A stretch of 20,979 nt of DNA. It comes from a virus. Position 1 is the first letter of the stretch. Every line of letters begins with the position of its first letter. The notes beneath the pieces were generated by a model, which did not search any database, was not told where the DNA came from, and saw only the letters and a program-made list of their open reading frames with translations. Where the stretch lies: positions 1-20,979 of IMG/VR virus record IMGVR_UViG_3300042691_002428; one strand, given 5' to 3'. This document shows, piece by piece, positions 2,771 through 18,718 of the stretch. The position numbers and the translations under genes are program-made.

Positions 2771-3676
2771 ATGGCTGTCAATCTTTCGGCTATTAAAGAC
2801 CTTCTCCTCCCCGGCCTCCGTGGGATTGAAGGCAAGTACGAGCAGATTCTGTCTCAGTACGACAAAATCTTCACCAAGCACGACTCCAAGATGGCGCTTG
2901 AGCGCACCGCTGAAATGCGCTTCTTGGGCCTTGCTCAGTTGAAGACTGAAGGCGCGCAGACTGCTTTCGACAACAACGCCGGCGAGCGTTACGTGTACAA
3001 CCAAGAGCATACTGAAATTGCTCTTGGCTACGCGATCACCCGCAAGGCGATTGACGACAACCTCTACAAGACCCAGTTCGCCCCCTCGAACCTTGGCCTG
3101 ATGGAATCTTTCCAGCAGACGAAGGAAATCTACGGCGCGAACGTGCTTAACACCGCTACGACCTACAATGCGTCGGTTGGCGGTGACGGCGTGGCGCTGG
3201 TGTCGGCTTCCCATCCGATTGATGGTGGCACGATCTCCAACTACACGACGAACGAGCTTAACGAGTCTACCCTGCTGAACGCGATGATCGCGATCCGCAC
3301 GAACTTCAAGGACCAAGCCGGTCTGAAGGTGTTCGCGCGTGGCCGTAAGCTCATCGTGCCGGCGGCTCTTGAGCCGGTTGCGATCCGTCTGACGAAGACG
3401 GAACTGCGTCCGGGCACGGCGGACAATGATGTGAACGCGATCATGATGACTGCCGGCGGTCTGCCGGAAGGCTACATGGTCAATGACTTCCTCACGTCTG
3501 CGGCCTCGTGGTTCCTCCTCACGAACATTGATGGCCTCTCCTACATGGAGCGCGTCAAGTTCGAGACCGATATGCAAGTGGACTTCGTGACCGACAACCT
3601 TCTGGTGAAGGGTTACGAGCGTTACAGCTTCGGCTACTACAACTGGCGCGCGATCTACGGCGCGATCCCGTCGTAA
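2771..3676 (+). CDS. major capsid protein (HK97 fold, Mu gpT-like)
   Basis: A 301-residue protein that assembles the icosahedral head shell. The N-terminal helix region (1-60) is followed by a stretch resembling the E-loop (GERYVYNQEHTEIALGYAI, 71-89). The segment ALVSASHPIDGG (142-153) matches the 'A.HP' turn common in Mu gpT-like capsid proteins. KLIVPAALEP (193-202) matches the conserved P-domain strand. The C terminus has ASWFLLTN (245-252) and GYERYSFGYYNWRAIYG (281-297), the closing signature of this group. Length is usual for unprocessed HK97-type capsids, and no separate protease gene is seen here. An AGGAG ribosome site lies just before the ATG, and a strong hairpin terminator follows the stop. 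The scaffold candidate and co-chaperonin upstream fit a head-assembly block. Confidence 0.85.
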   Translation: MAVNLSAIKDLLLPGLRGIEGKYEQILSQYDKIFTKHDSKMALERTAEMRFLGLAQLKTEGAQTAFDNNAGERYVYNQEHTEIALGYAITRKAIDDNLYKTQFAPSNLGLMESFQQTKEIYGANVLNTATTYNASVGGDGVALVSASHPIDGGTISNYTTNELNESTLLNAMIAIRTNFKDQAGLKVFARGRKLIVPAALEPVAIRLTKTELRPGTADNDVNAIMMTAGGLPEGYMVNDFLTSAASWFLLTNIDGLSYMERVKFETDMQVDFVTDNLLVKGYERYSFGYYNWRAIYGAIPS

Positions 3677-6032: not shown

Positions 6033-9846
<3,814 letters not shown>

Positions 9847-9850
<4 letters not shown>

Positions 9851-10983
9851 GCAGTCTTTCGCGCTTCAGCCCTGACTTTACTGCTGGTCAACAGCGGTTC
9901 CACGTCAACAACACAAATACCATCACCGGGTATTTGAAGTGTGACGGCAGCGTTGTGTCGCAGGCTACGTATCCTGAATTGTATGCTCAGATCGGGCTTA
10001 TCCCAGATGGCCCTGTCCTGACTACATGGACCGTAGGAACATCTCCAATAAACAGACCATACACTGCGACATATGGTAATGGTGTGTTTGTTGCTGCTGG
10101 AGATGCCAGTAGCTTAGTTACATCAACTGATGGTGTTACTTGGACTTCCAGAAACCCAAATTTCCCTGCTGGAACAACAGATATATTTGGCTCGGACTTT
10201 GGCGGGGGAATCTTTGTTATTGGAACAGATAACGGCTCCTTAGCTACATCAACTGACGGAGCTACATGGACGCTGAGAACATCAGGCACAACATCCTCAA
10301 TAGAAGCCGTCGCCTATGGCAACTCATTATATGTGATAGCGGGCGCAAATGGTTTTCTTCGCACGTCTACAGACGCGATCACTTGGACCGCAAGAACAAC
10401 AGGAACAACAAAAAAAATAAATGCAGTTAAGTATCTAAATTCTCAATGGGTTTATGTTGGCAATGACAGTACGCTTGCGACATCCACAGATGCCATAACG
10501 TGGACCGCAAGAACGGCTAACGCCTTCTCTTCAAATGTAGCTGCTACCATAAATGACATCGCGTATGGAAACGGTGCTTACGTGTATTGCTCCAGTTCCG
10601 GTATGATGGGCTACTCAACGGATGCTATACGGTGGGTAACAGCTACACTGGCAAGTCCCAGCACAGTTAGGTCTGTTAATTACTTTGGCAATATTTTTGT
10701 TGCTACATTGAACTTTAACAGCCCGTTCGCAGATGCGTATGTTTCTTATGATGGCCTTACATGGTCGTCTGTAACATCTGGGTCGTCTTATAACATTTTT
10801 GATTCTGCTTACAGCGGAACGCGGCTTGTTGCTGTTGCAACCAACGGCTCAAGTGCCGCTACGTTTATGTACGCTGATTACTATACATACTCCTCAACAA
10901 CCAATTTCAAATTACCAACTACGAGTACTGGCATTATATCAGCAAACGCCACAACTCCGGTTGCTTACATCAAGGTGAAGTGA
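9847..10983 (+). CDS. split tail-collar/seven-repeat propeller protein B
   Basis: A 378-residue paralogue of its neighbours. After MSSLSRF and a short lead, TGYLKCDGSVVSQATYPELY (about 28-47) is the collar first half, including the 'CDGS' form usual in tail-collar proteins. Seven propeller-like repeats follow; clear blade ends are TSTDGVTW, TSTDGATW, TSTDAITW (twice), YSTDAIRW and SYDGLTW, and the seventh is degenerate. The end, SSTTNFKLPTTSTG ... VAYIKVK, is the collar second half. The ATG overlaps the preceding stop (ATGA), so translation is coupled. Base composition is AT-richer than the capsid genes. A receptor-binding or adhesion role is inferred from collar plus propeller architecture and the fibre-gene context. 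Confidence 0.7.
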
Positions 10984-10984
10984 C

Positions 10985-12166
10985 ATGAGCAGCCTTAAAG
11001 CTCTCCTTTCCGCGCCAACAGACAATGCTCTTGGCGTCCCAACTTGGGACGATAAGGTTACATCATCTACATGGTTAAAGGGCGGCGCTATCTTCTCTCA
11101 AAGCACATACAGTTCTTTGTATTCAAAATACAGTTTGCTTGGCAAAACAACTGTAACAGACTGGAGGTCTGGAATTTGCGCCGTGAACTCAAATGATTTT
11201 CTCGGTTTTGCATCTTCCAGCTCTCTTGCATTAATGGTTGGTTCGGGAAGCGGGGTAAGAACGTCTGAAGACGGAATTGTATGGACGACAAGAAGCTCTT
11301 CTGCTGTCTCACAGAATTTAAGAGGCTGCACATATGGTAATGGATTATTTGTATCTGTCGGAAGCTCAGGGGTCATTAACACGTCCACAGATGCGATCAC
11401 ATGGACAAGACGAAGTGTCCTGACAAGTGCCACAATTAATTCTGTAACGTATGGCAGCAGCGTATATGTGCTTGCTGGTGATGTGGAAACCGTCGCCACT
11501 TCTACGGATGCTGTAACGTGGACGGTTAGAAGCACGCCGGGTGGCTCAAACTGGAATTTTAAGTCTATTGTGTATGCCGGTGGCATTTTCGTGATTGTGG
11601 GCAACTCAGGCTCTACAGGAAACGTCAGCATTTTAACTTCTGCTGATGGTATTACATGGACGCTAAGAAGCCCAAGCGCCACGAACAACCAATTAACCGC
11701 AGTGACCTACGGAAATGGCCTTTATGTAGCTGTCGGGAATGCAAACACCATCATGACATCCACCAATGCGATTACGTGGACCACGCGGAGCCAAGCGCCC
11801 GGAATGTCAAGCCAGAATTATGGCAGCGTTGCTTACGGGGATGGTGTATATTTGCTTGGTGGCATATCAGGAATTTCCACTTATGATACAGTGGCGTATT
11901 CTACAGATGCCATTACATGGTCAATTAGGTCAGTTCCGCCTCAATCTCCGAACATTGACCAACAATATAACGTATATGCGCTTCATTATTTTAAGGGTAA
12001 ATTTTTATACGGAGGATTAGGCGTTGATGGTGGGGCTAAGGTTAACGCCGGCACTTTTGGATATTCTAACCTGTTTAATTATGACCCAAACACGGAGTTC
12101 CAAACTCCATCAACCAGCTATATAGTCACGAACTCTCCGTCAAACATTTACGTTAAGGGGGTGTAA
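10985..12166 (+). CDS. split tail-collar/seven-repeat propeller protein C
   Basis: A 393-residue third paralogue. MSSLKALLSAP is followed by STWLKGGAIFSQSTYSSLYS (about 27-46), a more diverged collar first half in which the usual 'DGS' is replaced by GGA. Seven repeats follow, with blade ends TSEDGIVW, TSTDAITW, TSTDAVTW, TSADGITW, TSTNAITW and YSTDAITW and a last degenerate blade. The closing NTEFQTPSTSY ... NIYVKGV is the collar second half. It begins one base after the previous stop and its own stop abuts the next ATG (TAAATG). Blades 4, 6 and 7 carry extra loop residues, so this copy has the most elaborated surface. Probably a virion adhesin. Confidence 0.7.
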   Translation: MSSLKALLSAPTDNALGVPTWDDKVTSSTWLKGGAIFSQSTYSSLYSKYSLLGKTTVTDWRSGICAVNSNDFLGFASSSSLALMVGSGSGVRTSEDGIVWTTRSSSAVSQNLRGCTYGNGLFVSVGSSGVINTSTDAITWTRRSVLTSATINSVTYGSSVYVLAGDVETVATSTDAVTWTVRSTPGGSNWNFKSIVYAGGIFVIVGNSGSTGNVSILTSADGITWTLRSPSATNNQLTAVTYGNGLYVAVGNANTIMTSTNAITWTTRSQAPGMSSQNYGSVAYGDGVYLLGGISGISTYDTVAYSTDAITWSIRSVPPQSPNIDQQYNVYALHYFKGKFLYGGLGVDGGAKVNAGTFGYSNLFNYDPNTEFQTPSTSYIVTNSPSNIYVKGV

Positions 12167-12871: not shown

Positions 12872-13833
12872 TGGGTATCGTCTATGACGAACAGAACCTG
12901 ACCGCCAATGGCGGAACAGAGTTGATGATGCGTGGGCTTGAGAGCCGTCTGGACCCTAAATTTTTTGATGGACTTGTCCTGTCGCGCAACCTTGCCAAAC
13001 TGGAGGAAGCGTCCAAGGGCGTGAAAAGGGTGTTCTGGGCGCATGAAGTGCCCGCAACGCCGCAATCTGACATGGTGGAGTATCAGCACCTCGCCAACAA
13101 ACGCTGGCAGGGGTTTGATGCAATGGTGTGCGTATCCAACTGGCAAATGTTGGAATATGCCCGGTCTTTTCAATTCCGTTGGCCTGATTGGCAACGCACA
13201 CGGGTCATGCTGAACGCGATTGACCCAATCCCTGCTCATGACAAGCCGCATGACAAGATCAGGCTCATCTATATGTCGAGCCCGCAGCGTGGCCTGAAAA
13301 TCCTCTACGACGTGTTTCAGCGCCTCTGTCAGAAGCACGACGACATTGAGCTTGAGGTTTTCTCCTCTTTTAAGCTCTACCAAAACCCGCTGGAGACAGA
13401 TCAGACCTATCACGATCTGTTCGCCCGCATGCAGGACGACCCGCGCGTCATCTATCGCGGCCTTGGCACCAATCAGGATGTGCGTGAGGCGATCACCCGC
13501 GCGCATATCTTCGCCTATCCGTGCATATGGGGCGAGACAAGTTGCCTATCCTTGATTGAGGCGATGAGCGGCGGTCTGTTGTGCGTGCATCCCAACAATG
13601 CGGCGCTATTTGAGACGGCCTGCGGGATCACCAATATGTACCACTACCCGCCAGAAGGCCACGCTGATGTGTTTTACACAGAGCTTGACCGTGCTATAAA
13701 TCAATGGAAGACGGGCGACGTTGAGCATCTTTCGGCGCAGAAGGCTCACGCTGATCGCGTCTATTCTTGGAAGCATCGCGTACCCCAATGGGAGCGGTTG
13801 CTCACAGAGCTACGTGAAGGAATAACGCCATGA
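12871..13833 (+). CDS. GT4-family (GT-B) glycosyltransferase
   Basis: A 320-residue protein. The N-terminal domain has NGGTELMMRGL near the donor/acceptor cleft. The middle has VFWAHEVP and VCVSNWQ, typical of GT-B N-domains. The C-terminal half starts at IRLIYMSSPQRGLKIL and contains the 'GETSCLSLIEAMSGG' motif, the E-x7-E pattern of retaining GT4 enzymes. It is slightly short for the family (usually 350-400 residues), with a trimmed N-terminal domain. The start overlaps the upstream stop (TGATG) and the end overlaps the PP-loop gene by four bases (ATGA), so the three genes are translationally coupled. A cytoplasmic sugar-transfer role is well supported; donor and acceptor are not. Confidence 0.8.
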   Translation: MGIVYDEQNLTANGGTELMMRGLESRLDPKFFDGLVLSRNLAKLEEASKGVKRVFWAHEVPATPQSDMVEYQHLANKRWQGFDAMVCVSNWQMLEYARSFQFRWPDWQRTRVMLNAIDPIPAHDKPHDKIRLIYMSSPQRGLKILYDVFQRLCQKHDDIELEVFSSFKLYQNPLETDQTYHDLFARMQDDPRVIYRGLGTNQDVREAITRAHIFAYPCIWGETSCLSLIEAMSGGLLCVHPNNAALFETACGITNMYHYPPEGHADVFYTELDRAINQWKTGDVEHLSAQKAHADRVYSWKHRVPQWERLLTELREGITP

Positions 13834-14636
13834 AAGCCGCAGTTGCATTTTCCGGCGGTCTTGATTCAACTTATGCAATCTGGAAAATTTTGACGACGAC
13901 GCAAGACTCCGTTACGGCGGTCATCTTTGATTTAGATGGGCTGTTGCCGGAGGATTATGAGACGTATGACATTCGCATTTTTTTGAGGAACGCTAAACTT
14001 GAGTCCTCTTTGGCGAAGGTGCAGCCAATTTTAGACTGGTTTGCCGCTAATCTGCGCCCTGTGAACCTCGCGGTCGTGCCGATCACGCCAGATAAGCTCA
14101 TCCACGAGCATCCTAATACGCCTGAAACCTATTTTACAGACTGGGGGGTTGGGTTGGTGAACGCGGGAGATTTGGACCGCATCATCATTACGCACGAAAA
14201 AGAAAATGACGGGAACGCCAATCGGGGGCGGTTTGGCAAGGAAGGACCCGGTTCATGGCTTGCCTATGACCGTTTTATGCTAAACGCCACGCGCGGCTCC
14301 TTAGAGTTCCCGCTGCTTGATTCTGATTACCACCATGGCGTGGCTATGGCGGAAATTCCACATGACTTAATGGCTCTTGTGTCATCTTGTAATTCGGGCA
14401 GAGAAAACTGCACTTGCTTTAAGTGCAGCAAAATGAAGTTTTTTGAACGCGAGCTTCAGGCCGGCAAAACAACGTCTGAAATCTCTAACTACATCATGTC
14501 AAAATCTCTTCAGCCCAATGGAAGATGGCTGACCATGAAAACATGGTTGGGAGAAGAAGACATTGGTTACATCCCAAGCATGATTTTTGAAGAGAAGGAT
14601 ATGCCAACGTGGCCTTCATCCGTCTTCAAATCCTAA
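13830..14636 (+). CDS. QueC-like PP-loop ATPase with zinc-type Cys cluster
   Basis: A 268-residue protein opening with VAFSGGLDSTYAIW, a textbook PP-loop (SGGLDS, residues 8-13) that binds ATP and activates a substrate by adenylation. Residues 187-199 hold C187, C194, C196 and C199, similar to the C-terminal zinc site of QueC (7-cyano-7-deazaguanine synthase), though the spacing differs from the usual C-x8-C-x2-C-x2-C. Between these lies LVNAGDLDRIIITHEKENDG, in the substrate region. QueC makes preQ0 for tRNA queuosine, or for 7-deazaguanine DNA modification in some phages. No FolE, QueD, QueE or DpdA partner is in this window. An amide-forming enzyme acting on a sugar is another possibility. 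It overlaps both neighbours, so it belongs to the glycosyltransferase operon. Confidence 0.6.
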   Translation: MKAAVAFSGGLDSTYAIWKILTTTQDSVTAVIFDLDGLLPEDYETYDIRIFLRNAKLESSLAKVQPILDWFAANLRPVNLAVVPITPDKLIHEHPNTPETYFTDWGVGLVNAGDLDRIIITHEKENDGNANRGRFGKEGPGSWLAYDRFMLNATRGSLEFPLLDSDYHHGVAMAEIPHDLMALVSSCNSGRENCTCFKCSKMKFFERELQAGKTTSEISNYIMSKSLQPNGRWLTMKTWLGEEDIGYIPSMIFEEKDMPTWPSSVFKS

Positions 14637-15544
14637 CTTTTTTGCTCTTTATCGGGTCGGCGTCGGCGCTGGCTGACGTGAAGATCGTGGTCGGCTCCAA
14701 CGTGGACGGTCACTATCTGAACGCGCGCATCGTCGCCCGGCATTTTGGCGGGGTCGTCCATGTGGTCCCCGGTGCGGCGGGACTGAACGCCGCCAATTAC
14801 CTCGCCACGGTGTCCGCGCGTGACGGGTCAGAGATCGGCACGTTCACGTCGCGGGTGTTCCTGTCGGCGCTGTTTGATGACCCCGCCGCCCGCTATGATC
14901 TCGCCACCATGCACTGGCTTGGCTCTTTTGTGGACGGGCGCAAAAACCCTAATATAGTCTGGGTTAAGCCCAATCAGGAGCTAATTGGCGGTTCGGACGG
15001 CAGTGTGTCTGTGAGCCCCTTTAAGGTGCTTAACAGGGTATTGCGAAGCCAAATACGCGAAATAACGGGCTATTCTGACGTAAATACGATCCGGTTGGCT
15101 TTTGAGCGCAATGAGATCACCGCCGTCGTGTTCAATCTGGTTGGCGTGAAAACCGTCTCGCCGCACTGGCTGGGCTCGTCGGATGTGAAGCCTTACCTTC
15201 AGTATAACTTTGGCACCGTGCGCCACCCTGAATTTCCCGATGTACCTACGGCCATGGAGCAGATAGCCGATCCGCAGGACCGGGACTTGTTCGCCTTGTT
15301 TGAGATGCAGGGCGTTTTGGTGCGCCCCTATGCGCTGCCGCCGGGCGTGCCATCTGCCATGGTTGTCAAATGGCGTGACACGTTTGCCAAGCTCATGACA
15401 AATGAAGAATACATTAGAGACGCTCAAAAGATTGGTCTTGAGCTAACGCCTGTGTCAGCGCATGAGGCTCAGGAGATTGCGACACAGATAGCCCGTGCGG
15501 ATGTAAGTTTAAAGACAAGTCTGCGATCTCTGGCGTCACGCTAG
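14609..15544 (+). CDS. TctC/Bug-type periplasmic solute-binding protein
   Basis: A 311-residue protein with a signal peptide: Arg5, a hydrophobic core (about 6-16) and an Ala-x-Ala type cleavage site after A22. The mature part reads as a tripartite tricarboxylate transporter receptor (TctC/Bug family). It has VVPGAAGLNAANYLATVSARDGSEIGTF in place of the family's 'pGAgGl.aanylar..pdGttig', then LATMHWLGSF, FPDVPTAME and a C-terminal KWRDTFAKLM helix. Length is normal for the family and I see no frameshift. These proteins bind small carboxylates in the periplasm. No transporter membrane subunits are present. The GTG start overlaps the PP-loop gene by 28 bases. Finding it between phage glycosyltransferases and a tailspike is unusual; it may be an auxiliary host-derived gene. 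Confidence 0.75.
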   Translation: MAFIRLQILTFLLFIGSASALADVKIVVGSNVDGHYLNARIVARHFGGVVHVVPGAAGLNAANYLATVSARDGSEIGTFTSRVFLSALFDDPAARYDLATMHWLGSFVDGRKNPNIVWVKPNQELIGGSDGSVSVSPFKVLNRVLRSQIREITGYSDVNTIRLAFERNEITAVVFNLVGVKTVSPHWLGSSDVKPYLQYNFGTVRHPEFPDVPTAMEQIADPQDRDLFALFEMQGVLVRPYALPPGVPSAMVVKWRDTFAKLMTNEEYIRDAQKIGLELTPVSAHEAQEIATQIARADVSLKTSLRSLASR

Positions 15545-15585: not shown

Positions 15586-17103
15586 ATGGCGAATGATAAG
15601 GCGAGCATATTTAACGGCCTCATTCGGCTGGGCCGCTCCCCCTCCAACGGCGAAGTTCTGATCGGCAACGGATCGGACTTCCAGCTTGCGCCCCTGACCG
15701 GGGGCAGCAACATCACAATCACCAACAGCGCCGGCCAGATTGAGATTTCGGCGTCTGGAGGTGGTCCAATCGGGCCGACTGGTCCTACTGGCGCTGCTGG
15801 TCCGGCTGGTGGTCCTGCTGGGCCGACGGGGCCAACCGGGGCAACTGGGGCTTCCTCTTCCGTGGCGGGGCCAACAGGTCCTACGGGTCCGTCCTCCACG
15901 GCTCTTGGCCCGACAGGTCCAACTGGCCCGTCTGGCCCCTTGGGTCCGACCGGGCCTACGGGTTCCTTCAACGCATTTGGGTATGTCAGCGTCCTCGACT
16001 TTGGCGCGGACCCGACTGGGGCTATTGATTCAAGCGCAGCGTTCCAAAGCGCAATTAACTCTCTTGCGCCCTTGGGTGGCACGGTGGTTGTGCCGCCGGG
16101 CAATTATCTCATCACCAGCAGCGTGTATGTCGGAATCCGCAGCACGTCTCCTATTGGTCCGACAACGCCCTTGGTCGCCAACGTCTATTTGGTTGGCCCG
16201 ACGCCGGCGGCGGTGCAGTCTTTGGAGACTTCTCAGTATTTCCTCTATGCTAACATAACGCTCAGTTCTTCAGCGAGTTTTGTCCTTGGTGGCATGTCGG
16301 GCGTGGACGGGCTGCGTATCTTCCGTCAGGGCCTGACGTTCACCAGAACCGCGCCAGCGTCTTACGCCGGGACGGCTGTTTATGGGGCCGGAGGCCAAGA
16401 GGTCAGTGTTAAGAACTGTTTTATCCTTGGCTTTTCTCAGGCTGTTCACCTTCTTAATTGCCCCGGCTCGACGGTGGATAGTGTCTACTTTGACTGCACA
16501 AATGGCATTCTGGTGGACTATTCCTTGGATGTTACGCGCGTCATGAACTGCCACGGATTCCCGTGGGTGACAGATGGCGTGAAGCTCACCGCCGCCGACA
16601 ACAACCGATCTGGCTACGCTTACCGTTTCCTTACCCACAATGACTGGACTGAGGTTATCAACTGCTTCTCGTATGGCTATTTCCGGGGCTTTTTCGTGGA
16701 CACCTATGCCACGATTCAGTTTGTGGCGTGCGGTTCAGACAACACCCAGCAGCATCCCTCGTCTGCCGGCTTTGTAGTTGGCAATCTGAGCGCAAACGGG
16801 TCAGTGCATTTGATCGGATGCCTTTCAGCCGCCACGCAGAATAACTTCTACATGGATGCAAATGTTGGTGTAGTCCTTATGGACAACTGTGAAAGCTGGG
16901 GCGCACAAAACGGTTCGGGAGTTGGCAACGGATTTGTCAACGCAAGTGGGGTAACTTTTATTAACAACACCTACATCCATGATAATGTGGTTGGGTATCA
17001 AGTGACTGGCGGCACCGTATATGGATCGGGTGTCGCGTTGCGTGGGAACGGTACGACAGGTTCAGGTTTCATCAACGCTATGCCCACGACGGTTAGCGTT
17101 TAA
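15586..17103 (+). CDS. collagen-stalked tailspike with pectate-lyase-like beta-helix
   Basis: A 505-residue protein. The N-terminal ~60 residues look like a virion-attachment segment (NGEVLIGNGSDFQLAPL). A collagen-like stalk follows at 63-126 with Gly-Pro-Thr triplets. From about 132, YVSVLDFGADPTGAIDSSAAF and GGTVVVPPGNYLI are the hallmark start of Pectate_lyase_3-type right-handed beta-helices. The rest has the repetitive short-strand pattern with Asn/Cys ladders (VKNCFIL, VINCFSYGY, VHLIGCLS, VLMDNCES) up to a Gly-rich end. Such spikes bind or cleave surface polysaccharide; catalytic residues cannot be set from sequence alone. It has a GGGG ribosome site. It shares collagen cassettes with the 6759-8765 fibre and lies between the solute-binding protein gene and the MT-GT fusion. 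Confidence 0.8.
   Translation: MANDKASIFNGLIRLGRSPSNGEVLIGNGSDFQLAPLTGGSNITITNSAGQIEISASGGGPIGPTGPTGAAGPAGGPAGPTGPTGATGASSSVAGPTGPTGPSSTALGPTGPTGPSGPLGPTGPTGSFNAFGYVSVLDFGADPTGAIDSSAAFQSAINSLAPLGGTVVVPPGNYLITSSVYVGIRSTSPIGPTTPLVANVYLVGPTPAAVQSLETSQYFLYANITLSSSASFVLGGMSGVDGLRIFRQGLTFTRTAPASYAGTAVYGAGGQEVSVKNCFILGFSQAVHLLNCPGSTVDSVYFDCTNGILVDYSLDVTRVMNCHGFPWVTDGVKLTAADNNRSGYAYRFLTHNDWTEVINCFSYGYFRGFFVDTYATIQFVACGSDNTQQHPSSAGFVVGNLSANGSVHLIGCLSAATQNNFYMDANVGVVLMDNCESWGAQNGSGVGNGFVNASGVTFINNTYIHDNVVGYQVTGGTVYGSGVALRGNGTTGSGFINAMPTTVSV
15772..15963 (+). repeat. collagen-like stalk of the tailspike
   Basis: Gly-X-Y triplets, mainly Gly-Pro-Thr, with interruptions SSSVAG and SSTALG that resemble the AASTVAG breaks in the other fibre gene. 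Confidence 0.75.
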
Positions 17104-17125
17104 GTTAGGCATAGAGGGGGCTCAC

Positions 17126-18718
17126 ATGCCGTTTAGTTCGCAGTCTGGCAAGGCCAGCATCAAATGGGTTATGTCTAAAATCCCTGTTCCCAAGACAGCG
17201 CTGGACATCGGCGTTGGCGAGGGTGGCTATGCTAAGATGTTTCCAAATCTGCAATGGACAGGCGTTGAGATTTGGGAGCCATATGTAGAGAAATACGCTC
17301 TGAAGAAATTGTATCCTGATCTGCATGTGGCGGATGTCAGGACATGGGACACTGATAAGCGTTTTGACGTATGCTTTTTGGGTGACGTTCTTGAGCATAT
17401 GTCCGTTGAGGACGCTCAGGTATTGGTGCGCAAAGCCAAGCGTTGGGCCGCAACTGTTATTGTCAGCATCCCGATTGGCTCATATCCGCAGGGTGAATTT
17501 GACGGGAATCCTCACGAGGCTCATGTTACGGATAACTGGACTGACGAGGATGTCAAAAGAGCCTTTGGCAAGCCTACGTGGTCTTATATTGAAAAGGAGA
17601 TTGGGGTTTACGTATACTCCCCGTTTCCTGTAAAATTAACCTATTGCGTGTACGCCATCAGCAAGAATGAGGAACAGTTTGTTCGTCGGTTCTGCCAGTC
17701 CGCTCAAGACGCTGATCTTATCCTCATTGCTGACACTGGAAGTAGTGATGGAACCGCTGATCTCGCCCGAAACTGGGGCGCGATGGTCCACGACATTCAC
17801 ATATCTCCTTGGCGGTTTGATCTGGCTCGCAATGCCGCTCTTGCTCTTATTCCCCGGTCTATTGACATATGTATTTCACTTGACTTGGACGAAGTACTAG
17901 AGCCCGGCTGGAAACGTCGGATTGAAGAGGTATGGGTTCCCGGTAAGACCACTAACCTGTGGTACTACTTTGATTGGGGCCACAACATCCGCTTCCCCTA
18001 TCGGAAAATTCACAGTCGCCACGGCTACCACTGGCATCATCCGTGTCATGAAGATTTGCGGATTGATGGCCGCGTGGAGCATGTCACGGCGTGGTGCCCG
18101 CATCTTTTGGTCAGCCATCACCCGGACCCGACAAAGAGCCGGGGCCAATACATGGAGATGCTGGAGGTTGCGGTTAAAGAAGATGACAAGGACCCGCATC
18201 ACTACTTTTATTATGCGCGTGAGTTGACCTTTTACCGGCGCTGGGAAGATGCCAAAGTCGCGCTTCAGAAGTATCTGGATATGAACGCCCTGAGCGCCCA
18301 AAATGAGCGGTGCTATGCCATGCGCCTCATGGGCAAGTCCTACGCTGAAACAGGAGACGCCCGGACTGCTGAGAAGTGGTATTACATGGCTGCTGGCGAG
18401 GCTCCTAATACAAGAGAGCCTTGGTGCGAATTGGCTATGCTTATGTACCGTCAGCGGCGCTGGGAAGAGTGTTTTGCGGCGTCCATGCGGGCTTTGCGAA
18501 TCACCGACCGGCAGTTGGTTTATACGTGTGACCCTACCGTTTGGGGGTATTGGGCTCACGACCTCGCCAGCATATCGGCTTGGAACTTGGGGCTAAAAGA
18601 AATTGCTCTTCAACAGGCCAAAATTGCGGTTGAGCTTGAGCCTAATGACTTACGTTTACAGAAGAACTTAGAGTATATTCTGAACGCAATTCAAGCTCAG
18701 GGGGAGAAAGCGGCATGA
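17126..18718 (+). CDS. methyltransferase-glycosyltransferase-TPR fusion
   Basis: A 530-residue three-part protein. Residues ~1-165 form a class I SAM methyltransferase: ALDIGVGEGGYAKMF (25-39) is motif I, GVEIWEPY the acidic ribose-binding strand end, and FLGDVLEHMS (84-93) the motif IV region. Residues ~170-330 are a family-2-like glycosyltransferase: YCVYAISKNEEQFV, IADTGSSDGTADLA (201-214) and the D-x-D-like SLDLDEVLEPGW (251-262). Residues ~370-525 are helical, TPR-like repeats (YAETGDARTAEKWYYMA; IALQQAKIAVELEPND). The fusion suggests one enzyme that adds and methylates a sugar, with the TPR part holding the acceptor. I start at ATG 17126 behind GAGGGGG; the longer frame back to 17021 would overlap the spike gene and lacks a site. 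The acceptor is unknown. Confidence 0.75.
   Translation: MPFSSQSGKASIKWVMSKIPVPKTALDIGVGEGGYAKMFPNLQWTGVEIWEPYVEKYALKKLYPDLHVADVRTWDTDKRFDVCFLGDVLEHMSVEDAQVLVRKAKRWAATVIVSIPIGSYPQGEFDGNPHEAHVTDNWTDEDVKRAFGKPTWSYIEKEIGVYVYSPFPVKLTYCVYAISKNEEQFVRRFCQSAQDADLILIADTGSSDGTADLARNWGAMVHDIHISPWRFDLARNAALALIPRSIDICISLDLDEVLEPGWKRRIEEVWVPGKTTNLWYYFDWGHNIRFPYRKIHSRHGYHWHHPCHEDLRIDGRVEHVTAWCPHLLVSHHPDPTKSRGQYMEMLEVAVKEDDKDPHHYFYYARELTFYRRWEDAKVALQKYLDMNALSAQNERCYAMRLMGKSYAETGDARTAEKWYYMAAGEAPNTREPWCELAMLMYRQRRWEECFAASMRALRITDRQLVYTCDPTVWGYWAHDLASISAWNLGLKEIALQQAKIAVELEPNDLRLQKNLEYILNAIQAQGEKAA

Follow-up and report, generated by a model that had tools for sequence, protein, structure and literature searches.

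A TctC/Bug-like solute-binding protein gene beside a PP-loop enzyme gene in a freshwater phage

Cyanophages carry pstS, a gene for the binding component of a host uptake system, without a transporter of their own (PMC6359870), and genes related to the tripartite tricarboxylate transporter (TTT) have been mentioned in passing on aquatic viral contigs (PMC4164917; PMC8115048). In the open-access literature searched, we came across no work dealing with a clade of TctC proteins in phages or with the association of their genes with a PP-loop gene. We analysed here a stretch of 20,979 nucleotides (IMG/VR record IMGVR_UViG_3300042691_002428), hereafter called the window, whose source is a freshwater phage carrying a gene of the TctC/Bug kind.

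Organisation of the locus and family identity

A preliminary description had located at 14609-15544 an ORF for a signal-peptide-bearing TctC/Bug-type protein, between a PP-loop enzyme gene, which it overlaps by 28 bases, and a tailspike gene. This arrangement was borne out by the coordinates of the following features.

13830..14636, + strand: gene of a QueC-like PP-loop enzyme, the recurrent partner (SGGxDS motif, weak QueC-type matches, pairing, fold)
14589..14599, + strand: purine-rich, Shine-Dalgarno-like GAAGAGAAGGA, ending 9 nt before the GTG of the binding-protein gene (by eye)
14609..15544, + strand: TctC/Bug-like solute-binding protein gene, 311 aa, GTG start (ORF, orthologues, fold, clade)
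14609..14636, + strand: overlap of exactly 28 bases between the two genes, also found in the contigs L002 and L003
14609..14674, + strand: predicted Sec signal peptide, residues 1-22 (by eye, relatives, model helix)
14933..14941, + strand: codons 109-111 (D-G-R), typical of the phage clade (alignment comparison)

The N-terminus of the binding protein (MAFIRLQILTFLLFIGSASALA followed by D, with predicted cleavage after ALA) indeed reads by eye as a Sec-type signal peptide, as had been claimed. In line with this, the AlphaFold (AF2) model has a helix at residues 2-18, within the predicted peptide, and a similar N-terminal pattern was seen in those aligned phage relatives that have complete N-termini. 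On the 3' side, the gene at 15586-17103 matched PF12708, a pectate-lyase-type Pfam family (E 1.2e-10), and its PHROGs matches were to tail spike/fibre. Promoter and terminator scanning returned sites no more numerous than in shuffled sequences.

Other features of the window were observed around this locus. Collagen-like Gly-Pro-Thr repeats occur in two tail-region proteins (6759-8765 and 15586-17103), and three tandem related proteins with repeated motifs (10 protein letters) are encoded at 8750-12166, the third of them with a weak DUF6242 match. A fusion of a methyltransferase with a family 2 glycosyltransferase, with TPR-like matches, is found at 17021-18718; comparison with L003 places its probable start after the listed ATG, near 17126.

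The assignment to the TctC/Bug proteins had to be drawn from distant homology and fold. No Pfam family matched the window protein at E<=1; PF03401 (TctC) was thus missing at this threshold, as it was at E<=0.01 in a second scan. No NCBIfam model matched, and the sole PHROGs match had an E value of 0.16, so that a family scan would list the window copy as unknown. A tblastn search against plasmids retrieved 30 records, with E values down to 3e-15, several of which are annotated as TTT substrate-binding proteins. The five plasmid homologues examined all match PF03401, four of them over the cut-off and the other, L004, just below it (26.8 vs 27 bits), and each has a TctA-like gene in its fetched flanks. 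Against PDB sequences, phmmer with the single window protein stayed at chance level, while a profile including the bacterial homologues matched chains of TphC/TBP, BugD, Bug27 and MatC. A phage-only profile (A4) was also at chance level, indicating that the PDB profile result leans on the bacterial rows. The fold search offers more independent support, though the model was built from the same alignment. This model (pLDDT 92.9, pTM 0.85) predicts for the window protein the two lobes of a periplasmic binding protein, and each of the 17 best PDB matches is of the TctC/Bug type, with E values from 1.1e-10 to 2.7e-8 and TM-scores by query length of 0.57-0.65. Taken together, homology searches, profile search and modelling indicate that the window protein is almost certainly a TctC/Bug-like binding protein, outside the curated Pfam family. 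The family named in the preliminary description thus stands on fold and distant homology, without the expected match to PF03401.

Orthologues, phage clade and distribution

In other metagenomes, the contigs L002 and L003 carry a binding-protein gene 78% identical to the window copy, with the neighbouring genes in unchanged order and again a 28-base overlap; being near-identical to each other at the locus, they count as one lineage seen twice. These syntenic copies provide the related-contig comparison proposed at the outset, and they rule out an assembly chimera, which had been named as the finding that would overturn the claim. Between the window and L003, dN is 0.16 and dS about 1.9, a dS near saturation, and the most constrained stretch of the protein is 101-190 (pN 0.057, pS 0.75). 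The gene is intact and under purifying selection, as computed from these comparisons.

Phylogeny against bacterial homologues, also proposed in the preliminary description, set the phage copies apart. A single branch of the maximum-likelihood tree (support 100/99) separates the 32 phage copies, which stem from both podovirus-like and T4-like phages, from 21 bacterial relatives; this bacterial set, gathered with a pattern and from plasmids, is possibly incomplete, and the tree has several long branches. The clade is accompanied by changed residues. In a 41-row alignment, the first-loop Asp (GG-x-x-D type) was present in 13/13 bacterial rows and in none of the 28 phage rows; the five plasmid homologues also keep it. 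Conversely, at the positions of window residues 109-111, the phage rows mostly read D (27/28), G or N (27/28) and R (23/28), and this D-[GN]-R occurs in no bacterial row. According to the family fold, both sets of residues would line the ligand cleft; lacking the first-loop Asp, the phage proteins may bind another ligand, or none.

None of the 30 carrier records contained TctA, a weak absence given the many fragments among them, and a phage-borne TTT transporter was rejected as a candidate accordingly. An orphan protein of this kind could, as the preliminary description had already proposed with regard to the native transporter, act as a decoy or blocker, occupying the host TTT permease or sequestering a periplasmic compound, for instance against competitors or superinfecting phages, and the altered loop residues would fit altered binding. 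Such a role leaves the pairing with the PP-loop gene unexplained, and we consider it clearly unlikely.

Scans of IMG/VR found 22 contigs through the binding protein alone and others through the PP-loop gene, giving about 30 with the window; most of these records are fragments, which makes absences weak. The carriers are of two broad kinds. The first shares capsid, adaptor or tail genes with the window or its relative G023, and the second consists of T4-like phages, with neck and terminase genes in common with the contig L106, the names of the T4-like genes having been read from sequences and extended by tblastn between loci. By contrast, searches of 50,697 named phage records with the window copy and with two further copies found no relative. 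Nor were there relatives in named phages for two PP-loop proteins, and a DNA-level search with window positions 12.0-18.8 kb against named phages returned nothing. The earlier statement that this is not a usual phage gene thus held for named phages, but not for the IMG/VR contigs nor for UniProt, where some phage proteins bear labels of this family (see below).

The binding-protein gene was present in 4/44 records sampled largely on the basis of their capsid, among which are many fragments and two records included for having the gene; with this occurrence, it looks accessory. This patchiness could be that of a non-functional passenger or of an assembly artefact. We regard either as highly improbable, the artefact being refuted by the syntenic copies from other metagenomes, and the passenger opposed by purifying selection and by a phage clade that extends across unrelated phages. 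On sequence comparison, the gene looks instead like a phage-only branch recurring in unrelated aquatic phages, not a stray bacterial gene.

The capsid gene of the window (2771-3676) had at least 600 matches in IMG/VR, the best 80 at 88-100% identity, and a single close named phage record among the matches listed (MW202675, 88.8%); it may mark a common but hardly described phage group. The nearest named relatives of this capsid with known hosts are Pelagibacter and Roseobacter phages (38-43% identity), followed at lower identity by phages of Caulobacter, Alcaligenes and cyanobacteria, which is at best a weak hint of alphaproteobacterial hosts.

PP-loop pairing and proposed role

The main regularity, beyond the neighbour named in the preliminary description, is the pairing with a PP-loop gene across unrelated phages. 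A QueC-like PP-loop gene adjoins the binding-protein gene in 20/23 contigs, namely the 22 found through the binding protein alone and the window. These 20 include G023, where the adjacency spans both ends of the 58-kb contig and fits a circular or permuted genome. The pair is co-directional with the PP-loop gene first in phages of the capsid group, convergent in L103, L104, L123 and L125, and opens with the binding-protein gene in L106. Three binding-protein genes and two QueC-like PP-loop genes occur in L165, and one and several, respectively, in L166. The exceptions, L118-L120, have no adjacent QueC-like gene; a second TctC-like gene lies nearby, which in L118 and L119 is over the Pfam cut-off for PF03401, together with further PP-loop-like genes, of which one matches Asn_synthase weakly, and 2OG-Fe(II) oxygenase genes. 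Some PP-loop contigs are devoid of the binding-protein gene. Judged from gene neighbourhoods, the two genes look like an established two-gene phage tool.

Several side observations were made in the carriers. In the T4-like L165 (3102-9152), L166 (4400-8808), L168, L169 and L170, several binding-protein and PP-loop genes are found, in places interleaved on opposite strands, and in some with 2OG-Fe(II) oxygenase-like genes in between. A single frame of L104 (3086-4348) comprises an apparent truncated binding-protein N-terminus and then a full copy in frame, either a fused duplicate or an assembly effect. Curli-like genes (CsgG-like, curlin-like) were recognised by eye near the binding-protein gene in L118 (2458-5415) and L166 (9325-12329).

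The partner enzyme stays below the QueC cut-offs (PF06508, 14.6 vs 22 bits; TIGR00364, 9.8 vs 150.3 bits), and its Cys motif is partial and variable. Its model is fair (pLDDT 86.4) and resembles NcsA, QueC, LarE and argininosuccinate synthase, with low TM-scores. The PTPS and TGT families were not found in the 23 carrier records, although many of these are fragments and both functions may come from the host. With these two families not found in such partly fragmentary records and the partner below the QueC cut-offs, a queuosine role is not supported, and membership of the gene in a queuosine/archaeosine pathway was rejected as a candidate.

Our preferred, though tentative, reading, which we hold to be possible rather than probable, is that of an orphan solute-binding protein, adapted to phages, which would supply a host transporter with a captured solute and be coupled to the PP-loop enzyme. 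In the infected cell, the Sec system of the host would export the binding protein, which would bind a small solute once in the periplasm; going by the family, a carboxylate or a close analogue is the first guess. The solute would then be delivered to a TctAB-type transporter of the host, since none of the 30 carrier records, most of them fragments, shows TctA, and the idea of feeding the host a solute, already put forward in the preliminary description, remains plausible. More speculatively, the PP-loop enzyme in the cytoplasm may have the imported solute as its substrate, or a substrate fed by it; to judge from its family, this enzyme would use ATP to activate, for instance, a carboxylate group. 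The failure to reach PF03401, the lost first-loop Asp, the 3/23 contigs that have no adjacent QueC-like gene and the PP-loop contigs devoid of the binding-protein gene count against this mechanism.

The binding protein could also be a plain nutrient-uptake auxiliary gene, boosting the uptake of organic-acid-like compounds through the host TctAB, the PP-loop gene being unrelated cargo of the tail-fibre island. The TctC fold and predicted export signal, the TctA genes near bacterial homologues, the position of both genes in a cargo-rich tail region and the pstS precedent of cyanophages (PMC6359870) are in line with it. The pocket loop is changed, however, and the two genes remain neighbours in unrelated phages although their order and strand vary, for which shared cargo alone is no easy explanation; we thus place this reading on the unlikely side.

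Alternatively, in line with the recruitment to another binding role raised in the preliminary description, the fold may have been put to use in the envelope or virion, for example to present a precursor for the modification of tail fibres or surface glycans by the neighbouring gene products. The gene does lie among glycosyltransferase and tail genes, T4-like phages have it in several copies with PP-loop and 2OG-Fe(II) oxygenase genes as neighbours, and the loss of the first-loop Asp with the gain of D-[GN]-R gives this some weight. Yet the predicted signal peptide would direct the protein to the periplasm, away from cytoplasmic assembly, and recruitment of this kind seems rather improbable to us.

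Returning to solute capture coupled to the PP-loop enzyme, a more elaborate form can be proposed, which we consider doubtful. In such a two-part system, a re-tooled exported TctC-type protein would scavenge a specific solute that, once imported, the QueC-like PP-loop enzyme would use to modify a phage or host molecule, and the module would have been exchanged between phages of the podovirus-like and T4-like kinds, with multiplication to several copies in certain of them.

Comparison with known systems

From a functional point of view, the named travelling enzyme provides a testable handle on phage uptake or synthesis during infection. For annotation, a window copy that matches no Pfam family calls for caution. 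With the TctC/Bug proteins of TTT systems (PF03401; BugD 2f5x, Bug27 2qpq, MatC 6hke, TphC 7ndr), the window protein has in common the predicted fold, a full-length two-lobe alignment and distant sequence homology, and its N-terminus reads by eye as an export signal. Unlike them, it falls outside the Pfam model, its carriers are without TctA, and the first-loop Asp is lost and D-[GN]-R gained; the mature phage protein also starts shorter, the DFYKGK-like stretch being absent from nearly all phage rows. As for PstS of cyanophages, it belongs to a different binding-protein family, and its ligand, phosphate, is known. The partner gene shares with QueC and related PP-loop enzymes the SGGxDS motif and the predicted fold, but differs from them by scores below the family cut-offs, a variable partial Cys motif and the lack of PTPS and TGT in the 23 carriers.

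Proteins of uncultured Caudovirales phages labelled PBP2_Bug_TTT or Bordetella uptake protein (e.g., A0A6J5T247, UniProt) have the same predicted fold, with 12-16% identity to the window protein over fold alignments. Automatic 'Bug' labels on proteins of uncultured phages are thus already known, and the kind is not wholly new. What is new here is a phage clade apart from its bacterial relatives, its changed loop residues and its recurrent pairing with a PP-loop gene, which suggests that a solute-binding protein has become established in aquatic phages and forms a separate lineage there.
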